A stretch of 64,000 nt of DNA from Treponema bryantii (GTDB lineage: Bacteria > Spirochaetota > Spirochaetia > Treponematales > Treponemataceae), in contig SUWN01000004.1 of NCBI GenBank assembly GCA_015061465.1, positions 1 to 64,000 of the forward strand. Direction: 5' to 3'. Shown one piece after another: positions 35,623 to 38,905 of the stretch. The notes beneath the pieces were generated by a model. It saw only the letters and a list, made by a program, of their open reading frames with translations, did not search any database and had not been told where the DNA came from. Made by a program: the position numbers and the translations under genes. The number at the start of each line of letters is the position of its first letter. The first letter of the stretch is position 1.

Positions 35623-35648
35623 CGGGAGGCGTGCCTCCTGGTGGGAGG
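35623..35648 (+). promoter_or_regulatory. fliF leader with two mutually exclusive hairpins at the ribosome site
   Basis: CCTCC (35634-35638) can pair with GGAGG upstream (35625-35629, extendable to seven pairs at 35623-35640) or with GGAGG downstream (35644-35648), which is the fliF Shine-Dalgarno sequence. The first pairing frees the ribosome site; the second hides it. The two GGAGG copies compete for the same partner. Confidence 0.5.
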
Positions 35649-35652
35649 AAAG

Positions 35653-37362
35653 ATGAACGAATGGCTTAAAAATATGATGGGTAAGCTAAAGGATTTATGG
35701 TCTAAGTGGAAGCCCATTCAAAAAGTCATCATAATTGGAATCGTTTTAGTCGTAATCGTTGTTATTATCGCGTCGGCACGCTTATCATCAGCGCCAACAA
35801 CTGTTAGATTATTTAACGCCCCTGTAACAGATCAAGCAGCATTAACAAATATTTTAGATAGACTTTCTCAAGAAAACGTAGAAGCATATACAACAGAAGA
35901 TGGCTATATTTCTGTGGCAGATGATTTAACTGCTAGAAGAATGCGTGAAATCCTTGTAAGTGAAGATTTGGTTCCTTCGAGCATTGACCCTTGGGCAAGT
36001 TTTTACGATAGAAGTTGGTCTACAACAGATGCTGATCAAAACGTAAAATTAAAAAATACAATTCAAAAACAATTAAAACAACACATCGAAGCCATAAACG
36101 ATATTCAAATGGCTGACGTAAATATTGTTCTTCCAGAAAATCAACTTTTTACTGCTGACCAAAACCCAGTTACTGCAAGTGTAATTATTAAAACAAAGCC
36201 TACAAGTTCATTTTTAACTGATAGAAAAAGAATTTTAGGACTCCAAAAATTAGTTCTTTCTGCTGTAGAAGGTCTTAAAGCAGAAAATCTGATTATTGCT
36301 GACTTTGAAGGAAATCAAATTAACGATTTTGAAGGAATGGCAGAAAGTGACAGAATCGATATTATTGCAAAACAACAAAAATTGATTCGTAAACAAGAAA
36401 CTGAAATTCGTGCCAAAATCTTAAAAGCATTCCAGAATACATACACAGAAGATCGTTGTAGAGACATGATTGTTGCTGTAGAAATGGATATGTCGCAAAA
36501 AACAAGTGATTCTACAATCTATACACCAATCGAACGCAAAAAAGATAATCCAGATACACCTTACGATGATTCAGAATATGTAGATACTTTGCCAATTAGC
36601 CAGCAAACTGTTACAAAAGAATGGCAAGGAACTGGTTTTAATCCAGAAGGTCCTGCAGGTGTTGAAGGTCAAAATCCTCCTGTTTATTCAGATATGTCAA
36701 ATGTAATTGGAAAATCTACCGAAACAGGAATCACACAAAATAATGTAATTAATACAACACAAACATCGCAAATATCATCTCCAAAAATCGATAGAATTTC
36801 GGTTTCTGTGAATTTGGATGGTAAATGGAAAAAAGTTATTAATCCAGAAACAGGAAATCCTGTAATTGACGAAGATGGTTCTATCAAACGTATTTATACA
36901 GCATTGACTCCAAATGAACTTTCAGAAGCAGAAAAGTCGATTAAAGGTGCAATCGGTTATAATCGTGACAGAGGCGACTTAGTTGTTGTAACAAATATTG
37001 CTTACGATAGAGATGAAGAATTTGCAAAAGAAGACGCAGAATATTTTGCACAATTACAACGCAGAAGAACAGTTCTCTTGATTTTGATTGCAGTTGCAGT
37101 TGTTTTGATTGGATTCATCTTGTTTAGAATTATCAGTCGCGAACTTGAACGTCGTCGTCGTCTTAGAGAAGAAGAACTTCTTAGAAAACAACAGGCTGCT
37201 CGCGAAGCTGCTTTGTGGGAAGCAAAAGACGATGGAATGGAAGTTACAATGTCTGTTGAAGAAACAAGACGTATGGAATTGCAAGAAAATGCAATTGCAA
37301 TGGCAAAAGAACATCCAGAAGACGTTGCAATGCTTATCCGCACTTGGTTAATGGAGGAATAG
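35653..37362 (+). CDS. fliF: Flagellar MS-ring protein FliF
   Basis: 569 residues from the ATG at 35653, which follows GGGAGG by 4 bases; the in-frame GTG at 35641 overlaps that site and is rejected. TM1 at about 23-43, periplasmic ring-building motifs (VRLFNAPVTDQAALTNILDRL; NIQMADVNIVLPE-type), TM2 at about 475-495, then a cytoplasmic tail ending EHPEDVAMLIRTWLMEE, the conserved FliG-binding peptide. It forms the MS ring in the inner membrane and recruits FliG. The next gene starts one base after the stop. Confidence 0.95.
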   Translation: MNEWLKNMMGKLKDLWSKWKPIQKVIIIGIVLVVIVVIIASARLSSAPTTVRLFNAPVTDQAALTNILDRLSQENVEAYTTEDGYISVADDLTARRMREILVSEDLVPSSIDPWASFYDRSWSTTDADQNVKLKNTIQKQLKQHIEAINDIQMADVNIVLPENQLFTADQNPVTASVIIKTKPTSSFLTDRKRILGLQKLVLSAVEGLKAENLIIADFEGNQINDFEGMAESDRIDIIAKQQKLIRKQETEIRAKILKAFQNTYTEDRCRDMIVAVEMDMSQKTSDSTIYTPIERKKDNPDTPYDDSEYVDTLPISQQTVTKEWQGTGFNPEGPAGVEGQNPPVYSDMSNVIGKSTETGITQNNVINTTQTSQISSPKIDRISVSVNLDGKWKKVINPETGNPVIDEDGSIKRIYTALTPNELSEAEKSIKGAIGYNRDRGDLVVVTNIAYDRDEEFAKEDAEYFAQLQRRRTVLLILIAVAVVLIGFILFRIISRELERRRRLREEELLRKQQAAREAALWEAKDDGMEVTMSVEETRRMELQENAIAMAKEHPEDVAMLIRTWLMEE

Positions 37363-37363
37363 G

Positions 37364-37774
37364 ATGAGTGGTTTTACAATGGTAACCAATGATGAAAACA
37401 TCCCAATTTCTTCAAGTCAAAAAGCAGCGATTTTGTTTACAGAATTAGGTTCGGATTTTTCTAGTAAATTAATTCCTTTTCTTTCTGATGCTGAATTAAA
37501 AAAATTACGAACTGCTGTAGTCGGACTTGGTTTATATTCACCAAGAATGAAAAATTTTTCTAAAATACAAAAAAGAGAAATTAGAGTTTTAGAAGAAGTT
37601 TGCGCTTATGGAGTAAGAAAAAATTATTTAGATCCGAGTGTTCTAGAAAAAAAAGACTATGGATTTATAAAAACAACTTCAGCAAATGGCTCTGAAAATA
37701 AAATTATAAAAGATTTTGTTGATAACCCAGATGTTGTAACAAATGTTTTAAGAACTTGGCTTAATGAAGAATAA
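37364..37774 (+). CDS. FliG-N-like domain joined to a FliF-type C-terminal tail
   Basis: 136 residues, coupled to fliF (ATG two bases after the TAG; GGAGGAATAGG serves as ribosome site). Residues of about 17-85 (SSSQKAAILFTELGSDFSSK..FLSDAELKKLRTAV..) align in pattern with the start of FliG (LTGRQKAAIFLISLGPDVSSE..HLREDEVETLTFEI..). The last 17 residues, DNPDVVTNVLRTWLNEE, match the FliF tail EHPEDVAMLIRTWLMEE. The protein thus holds counterparts of both sides of the known FliF-FliG contact. It has no middle or C-terminal FliG domain, so it cannot contact stator or FliM as FliG does. It may cap, regulate or bridge MS-ring/C-ring assembly. It is not a fragment of the intact fliG that follows. 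Confidence 0.8.
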   Translation: MSGFTMVTNDENIPISSSQKAAILFTELGSDFSSKLIPFLSDAELKKLRTAVVGLGLYSPRMKNFSKIQKREIRVLEEVCAYGVRKNYLDPSVLEKKDYGFIKTTSANGSENKIIKDFVDNPDVVTNVLRTWLNEE

Positions 37775-37789
37775 AATAGGAGAAAAAAG

Positions 37790-38905
37790 ATGGCAGATGA
37801 TGATTTAATTGCACTTGATAAATCTAAAAGCTCAAATCCAAAGCCTATTCCAAAACCTGGTAGTTTAAAACCTGCTGGAAGTAGCAAAAAAAATAGCAAA
37901 GATTATAAAAGCTTAACTGGAAGACAAAAGGCAGCCATTTTCTTAATTTCGCTTGGACCAGATGTTTCTTCTGAAATTATGAAGCATTTGCGCGAAGATG
38001 AAGTTGAAACATTAACATTTGAAATTGCTCGACAAGAAAAAGTAAATCCTGAATTTAAAGACGCGGTTCTTGAAGAATTTCAAGAATTGATGAATGCACA
38101 GAATTTTATTACAACTGGTGGTATAGATTACGCTCGCGAACTTTTGGAAAAATCTCTTGGTTCACAAAAAGCAATTGATATTATCAACAGACTTACAAGT
38201 TCATTGCAAGTTCGTCCGTTTGATTTTATTAGAAGAACTGACCCAGCGCACTTGTTGAACTTTATTCAGCAGGAATATCCACAGACAATTGCGTTGATTT
38301 TGGCGTATTTGGAACCAGGAAAAGCCGCTGTTATTTTGCAAAACCTTCCAGAAGATATGCAAGCTGAAGTTTCAAAACGTCTTGCAACAATGGACCGAAC
38401 TTCTCCTGATGTTTTGCGTGAAGTTGAACGCGTTTTGGAAAAGAAACTTTCTACACTTTCTAGCGAAGACTACACAGCAGCTGGTGGTGTTGAAGCTATC
38501 GTTGAAATTTTGAACCTTGTAGACCGTTCTTCCGAAAAATCCATCATCGAATCTTTGGAAGAAGAAGATCCAGATTTGGCAGAAGAAATCAAAAAACGTA
38601 TGTTCGTATTCGAAGATATTGTTCAGCTCGACGACCGTGCTATTCAGAAAGTTATGCGTGATGTTGACCAACAGGAACTCGCAAAAGCGCTTAAATCTGT
38701 TGATACAGAAGTTCAAGATAAAATCTTCCGTAATATGTCTAAACGTGCAGCAAGTATGCTCAAAGAAGATATGGAATTTATGGGACCTGTACGCTTAAAA
38801 GATGTAGAAGAAGCACAGCAGAAAATTGTTTCTATTATCAGACGTCTTGAAGATAGTGGTGATATCGTAATTGCACGTTCTGGTGAAGATGAGCTTGTAA
38901 CCTAA
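37790..38905 (+). CDS. fliG: Flagellar motor switch protein FliG
   Basis: 371 residues, full length. After a Pro/Ser/Lys-rich extension of about 45 residues come FliG-N (GRQKAAIFLISLGPDVSSEIMKHL), FliG-M with the EHPQ-like block FIQQEYPQTIALILAYL, and FliG-C with the charged helix DDRAIQKVMRDVDQQELAKALK that meets the stator. It forms the C-ring layer that converts stator force into rotation and switching. Spacing from the preceding small FliG-like gene is 15 bp, with AGGAG before the ATG. Confidence 0.95.
   Translation: MADDDLIALDKSKSSNPKPIPKPGSLKPAGSSKKNSKDYKSLTGRQKAAIFLISLGPDVSSEIMKHLREDEVETLTFEIARQEKVNPEFKDAVLEEFQELMNAQNFITTGGIDYARELLEKSLGSQKAIDIINRLTSSLQVRPFDFIRRTDPAHLLNFIQQEYPQTIALILAYLEPGKAAVILQNLPEDMQAEVSKRLATMDRTSPDVLREVERVLEKKLSTLSSEDYTAAGGVEAIVEILNLVDRSSEKSIIESLEEEDPDLAEEIKKRMFVFEDIVQLDDRAIQKVMRDVDQQELAKALKSVDTEVQDKIFRNMSKRAASMLKEDMEFMGPVRLKDVEEAQQKIVSIIRRLEDSGDIVIARSGEDELVT

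Follow-up and report, generated by a model that had tools for sequence, protein, structure and literature searches.

A small gene between fliF and fliG

In the window (the whole stretch of 64,000 nucleotides from Treponema bryantii analyzed here) a short gene lies between fliF and fliG, and its product combines counterparts of pieces of both neighbors: a head resembling the N-terminal domain of FliG (FliG_N), a linker, and a tail resembling the C-terminus of FliF (FliF_C). We refer to it as the chimera. The features of the locus are listed in Table 1. Both flanking genes are complete and ordinary; for fliF an alternative start, the ATG at 35653 behind GGGAGG, also fits.

The junction reads ATGGAGGAATAG-G-ATG: the stop codon of fliF (37360-37362) is followed by a single spacer base (37363) and then by the ATG of the chimera. 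Because the spacing is one base and a GGAGG lies inside the end of fliF, translational coupling between the two genes, as claimed in an earlier note on this DNA, is plausible. The placement of GGAGG within the end of fliF recurs in other copies at this junction. The claim covers the copies at the junction, that of the window among them (39 of 102 distinct homologues), and not the family at large, most of which is not adjacent to fliF. The window genome also encodes a second full-length FliG (FliG1, 380 aa; G000:C16:40611-41750, L184).

Table 1. Features at the fliF-fliG junction of the window.
Feature	Position	Strand	Basis
fliF (MS ring)	35641..37362	+	TIGR00206 1.9e-95
FliF C-terminal tail EHPEDVAMLIRTWLMEE, known FliG_N partner	37309..37359	+	sequence; PMC6079021
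GGAGG, likely ribosome-binding site of the chimera, within the fliF coding end	37353..37357	+	sequence
Chimera ORF, 136 aa: FliG_N-like head, variable linker, FliF_C-like tail	37364..37774	+	ORF list, Pfam
FliG_N-like domain, residues 15-85, LSGxEKAAILLxELG...VLEE	37406..37618	+	PDB-wide profile, AlphaFold model
Variable linker, residues 86-112	37619..37699	+	homologue alignments; residues 103-110 pLDDT under 50
FliF_C-like tail, residues 113-136, ...IIKDFVDNPDVVTNVLRTWLNEE, near-invariant W132	37700..37771	+	hhalign, tail-only PDB profile
fliG, FliG2 type, complete N, M and C domains	37790..38905	+	TIGR00207 4.8e-147
FliG_N domain of intact FliG, Pfam residues 42-144	37913..38221	+	Pfam 4.3e-48

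The head resembles FliG_N

That the protein begins with a FliG_N-like domain, as the earlier note had it, was borne out by profile comparison. The window chimera matches Pfam FliG_N (PF14842) at E = 2.6e-5 and 25.2 bits, barely above the gathering cut-off of 25, and 74 of 75 homologues match the same family individually (E up to 1; best 2.4e-13). When a profile of the chimera family was compared with all PDB sequences, the top match was 5tdy_B (E 9.7e-10), the FliG_N chain of a Thermotoga FliF-FliG co-crystal, with other FliG chains next. In nearly all flagellated spirochete genomes a profile built from 17 homologues finds the N-terminal domain of the intact FliG, at approximately 1e-7 to 1e-11.

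Structure prediction for the chimera alone points the same way. The single-chain AlphaFold model is of moderate confidence (pLDDT 73.7, pTM 0.64) and contains the FliG_N helices; its residues 12-91 align best with FliG N-domains (VIA Z 6.2-5.5), and the four best matches, down to Z 4.5, all come from FliG, the next match scoring 3.0. On this model the head has the FliG_N fold. Foldseek gave no match with E under 0.001 for either of the two AlphaFold models, with 5tdy ranked first in both.

The head shares with the FliG N-domain its helices and its KAAI(L/F)L...LG and VLEE motifs. Unlike FliG, however, the chimera is without FliG_M, FliG_C (neither has a Pfam match in the window chimera) and the NM linker helix, and carries instead a linker, whose length and sequence differ between homologues in two alignments, and the FliF-like tail. 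Against the FliG equivalog TIGR00207 it scores 21.5 bits, over profile positions 9-51 only, where the cut-off is 226.7. Among the two FliG types of these spirochetes the head is nearer to FliG2, the FliG encoded next to fliF, with a median of 43 bits as against 11.5 for FliG1, and FliG1 was rejected on these scores as the nearer source of the head.

The N-termini of FliG1 proteins have a conserved GGL(I/L)KV motif upstream of the N-domain; many chimeras begin with a similar-looking M-x-x-F-I-K-x-T.

The tail resembles the FliF C-terminus

Three profile comparisons connect the end of the chimera with the end of FliF. The first used an HMM built from the FliF tails of the fetched loci (EHPEDVAMLIRTWLMEE and variants): a score of 0 bits or more is reached by 96% of the family C-termini and by 2.8% of 931 unrelated open reading frames. 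Since the family C-termini in this comparison are mutually related, we quote no p-value for the rank test. In the second, hhalign of FliF tails against the family returned one significant match only, at the family C-terminus (probability 96%, P = 3.3e-9). In the third, a 24-column profile of the tail alone was run against the whole PDB, and the two best matches were FliF C-termini (12dr, E 0.021, and 6scn, E 0.076), both located at the extreme end of FliF. Taken one by one these E-values are modest; it is the rank and the exact placement that carry the case.

The family consensus of the tail is NPxx[VI]AxxLxxWLxx, with a nearly invariant W. At the extreme C-terminus the last ∼24 residues share P-[DE]-x-[VI]-A-x-x-[LI]-x-x-W-L with FliF, and the tail belongs to the FliF C-terminal type (the EHPxxVAxLIRTW-type helix), although the R and T of RTW and the histidine of EHP are not conserved. 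The chimera differs from FliF in being without membrane segments and ring-building domains. There is no match of the window chimera to the FliF equivalog TIGR00206 (cut-off 129.75 bits), and weak matches occur in eight homologues only (best 0.00068). The earlier note had described the tail by the exact motif RTWLxEE: homology to the FliF C-terminus stands, but the exact motif is not conserved. Homologues in the junction position keep a W-containing tail. Of the two outcomes that the earlier note had named as refuting its reading, a lack of significant profile matches and a loss of the tail from orthologues in this position, neither was seen.

Judged from these comparisons, the resemblances of head and tail both exceed chance, and we regard the homology of the two ends, and with it the identity of the protein as a FliG_N-FliF_C chimera, as close to certain.

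In three homologues (L108, L118 and L224) the W of the tail is replaced by M or L, a possible natural loss of tail binding.

Distribution and selection

Full-length homologues, mostly in single copy, are present in about half of 200 genus-mates (∼100 genomes), and 102 distinct sequences were collected. Beyond the genus, three other genera of its family have homologues in some of their species (four genera in all); none was found in the other families sampled. The carriers include gut and oral Treponema: named ones are Treponema socranskii ATCC 35535 and Treponema sp. JC4, C6A8 and Marseille-Q4130, to which many metagenome-assembled genomes from rumen and horse gut are added, and T. socranskii, JC4 and C6A8 are in culture. 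A scan of viral and genome contigs with the single protein returned no match; for a family so diverged a profile is needed. The profile scan of contigs used a subset alignment (A3), the full profile (A1) being too diverse.

Identity within the family is ∼35%, which makes it far more divergent than FliF or FliG. In close pairs the median dN/dS is nonetheless 0.09, with ∼0.10 in the head and 0.09 in the last 24 residues. By this measure the family is under strong purifying selection, and there can be little doubt that the chimera is a conserved functional protein.

In flagellated relatives without the chimera, one of them with a genome about as large as that of T. pallidum (1.1 Mb), fliF is followed directly by fliG. 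For this reason the chimera is an accessory and not a core part; since half of the genus is without it, it is dispensable for flagella in general.

One genome (G191) has two copies of the chimera at two loci (L089 and L103).

A labile gene location

A survey of the fliF-fliG junction in other treponemes, which the earlier note had called for, recovered tailed copies there: 39 of the 102 distinct homologues lie between fliF and fliG and 63 (∼60%) elsewhere. The latter also retain the head-tail architecture. On the family tree location is clustered, with ∼5 changes, at least two of them on well-supported branches; the copy in the window, like its two nearest relatives, lies at the junction, within a group that is mostly non-junction. 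In the other genera most copies lie outside the junction. Given this distribution, the location of the gene is labile. The junction as ancestral location is not supported, given the number of changes on the tree and the position of the copies in other genera.

In four loci (L155, L157, L158 and L159) fliF, chimera and fliG follow one another in one frame with only single stop codons between them, a layout such as tandem duplication of the junction would leave.

No sigma-28-like promoter was found upstream of any of the 63 non-junction copies (shuffled sequences lead one to expect 1.8), which gives no support to co-regulation with flagellar genes. A search for a regulatory neighbor common to all copies of the chimera found none.

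Some non-junction copies share neighbors, namely a capA-like gene, a helicase and purA (L018, L042, L051, L056; L084, L094, L102), hinting at an old second location.

The chimera and the FliF-FliG contact

The junction of FliF and FliG is usually described as a single fixed contact through which the C ring transmits torque to the rod. FliG_N is known to change conformation and co-fold with the FliF tail, giving a complex that resembles FliG_M (PMC6079021), and within the C ring a separate inner subring is made up of FliG_N-FliF_C (PMC11528121). Both components of this co-folded split domain (PDB 5TDY, 5WUJ) are also present in the chimera, but there they form a single chain and their order is reversed, the socket preceding the plug. 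Engineered full-length FliF-FliG fusions in Salmonella (PMC6079021) likewise join FliF and FliG parts covalently; whereas these run from FliF to FliG, the chimera is natural and small, runs from FliG_N to FliF_C, and exists alongside intact FliF and FliG. By analogy with the known co-folding, its head would be a socket for the FliF tail and its tail a plug for the FliG_N socket. The earlier note suggested that such a protein could self-occlude, polymerize, cap FliF or recruit FliG, and so might serve as an assembly or asymmetry factor where the two rings meet. One small protein with a FliG_N head and a FliF tail is indeed what is encoded; that it acts at this contact we infer from the co-folding and from an AlphaFold model, and consider probable.

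Two models bear on how the ends might be used. In that of the window chimera alone the tail is ordered (residues 113-135, pLDDT 83-87), with which closure of the protein on itself fits equally well. The second is of a read-through chain from L159, comprising the FliF tail, the chimera and FliG_N in frame through two stop codons, and was meant to let the halves compete (pLDDT 69.8; pTM 0.49, which is low; the alignment had only 22 rows). Complete FliG_M domains of known structure align with the chimera tail plus FliG_N: 4fq0_C over 78 of 80 residues at 2.1 A (model 143-257), 4qrm_B over 74 of 74 at 2.8 A (model 156-259) and 3soh_B over 74 of 80 at 2.3 A. Similarly, 9a67_B aligns with the FliF tail plus the chimera head (71 residues, 2.9 A, model 1-96), and chains comprising FliG_M plus C align from the FliF tail through FliG_N as consecutive modules. 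The pairings are read from alignment ranges, as distinct from contacts or coordinates. They correspond, at low confidence, to a chimera whose head takes the FliF tail and whose tail enters FliG_N; the pTM is low, and chain order with short linkers favors the pairing of neighbors.

A possible relay between the MS ring and the C ring

We propose that the chimera acts as a relay adaptor: the head would take the tail of FliF, and the tail would enter the N-domain of FliG. In some or all subunits of the motor this would insert a further link between the rings or take the place of an existing one. That both ends have been kept together in ∼100 genomes and four genera, also at loci away from the flagellar operon, with low dN/dS in each, argues that plug and socket are both used. 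The probable origin of the gene is a tandem duplication of the fliF-3'/fliG-5' junction, which would leave exactly a FliG_N-FliF_C frame between intact fliF and fliG; the gene may afterwards have been relocated in many lineages. We put the relay mode at a probability of approximately 0.4, and the whole explanation, relay included, at the same value.

The presence of the chimera beside intact FliF and FliG implies that their contact has been re-engineered or is regulated in the spirochetes that carry it. Tentatively, and with somewhat less assurance than the relay itself, the chimera could be a natural motor adaptor in which a duplicated split-domain interface supplies a second plug-and-socket link from MS ring to C ring; if so, a large group of spirochetes would, again tentatively, have a conserved rotor contact that is built of modules and can be extended. 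With a soluble protein of 136 residues and two known partners, it becomes possible to test how the MS ring is coupled to the C ring, whether copy numbers are mismatched and how assembly is controlled.

The main rival to the relay, which we think possible but rather unlikely, is a competitive cap or regulator of assembly. The head would occupy free FliF tails, or the tail free FliG_N, and so delay or limit C-ring assembly or flagellar number, each unbound chimera being closed by its own other half. The small size of the protein, its single-copy gene, its fast evolution, its patchy distribution and a locus that is mostly outside the flagellar operon are more in line with a sub-stoichiometric regulator than with a ring subunit, and the ordered tail of the single-protein model agrees with closure. 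Yet for capping one half would suffice, whereas both are conserved together, and the copies have no regulatory neighbor in common.

Less probable is a self-closed filler, in which the tail would sit in the protein's own head as a permuted FliG_M-like module, either forming an extra FliG_N-FliF_C subunit of the inner subring or, where there is more FliG than FliF, serving the FliG_N domains for which no FliF tail is available. The C ring of a spirochete can be large (that of Borrelia burgdorferi is 46-fold; PMC6663468), which makes such a mismatch in copy number conceivable, and the tail helices of the single-chain model are ordered. The read-through model, however, pairs the tail with FliG_N and not with its own head, subject to the bias of chain order, and many spirochetes are without a chimera.

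We consider it improbable that the chimera is the partner of FliG1, or of a split FliG, in asymmetric or specialized motors. FliG1 was present in all genomes tested, its Borrelia counterpart is placed asymmetrically (PMC7225975), and a FliG_C-only reading frame follows the chimera in two genomes; but the head is nearer to FliG2, and FliG1 is present also where the chimera is absent. FliG1 and FliG2 are likewise a C-ring component diversified by duplication, but FliG1 is a full-length FliG and the chimera a different gene, additional to both. Finally, that the gene is a non-functional relic of a duplicated junction, or that the tail resembles FliF by chance, might be suspected from the patchy presence and the shortness of the tail motif, but is very improbable in view of the dN/dS, the nearly invariant W, the hhalign match and the first and second rank of FliF C-termini in the PDB-wide search.

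Relation to described proteins and FliG_C-only frames

No curated family in Pfam or NCBIfam covers the whole chimera, and a description of such a protein was not found in the open-license literature searched, in keeping with the earlier note, which gave no named counterpart at this position in other bacteria. What is new here is an unusual recombination of known domains and not a new kind of domain.

Two genomes (L098 in G093 and L090 in G102) have a FliG_C-only open reading frame immediately behind the chimera and in the same orientation; in L098 it is in the same frame, right after the stop codon of the chimera. The FliG_C-only frame matches FliG residues 231-361 (phmmer, 6.5e-22), and from its sequence the pair looks like a split FliG set. 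In a genus-wide search for FliG_C many genomes gave three to seven matches where two are usual, which suggests further FliG-like genes.
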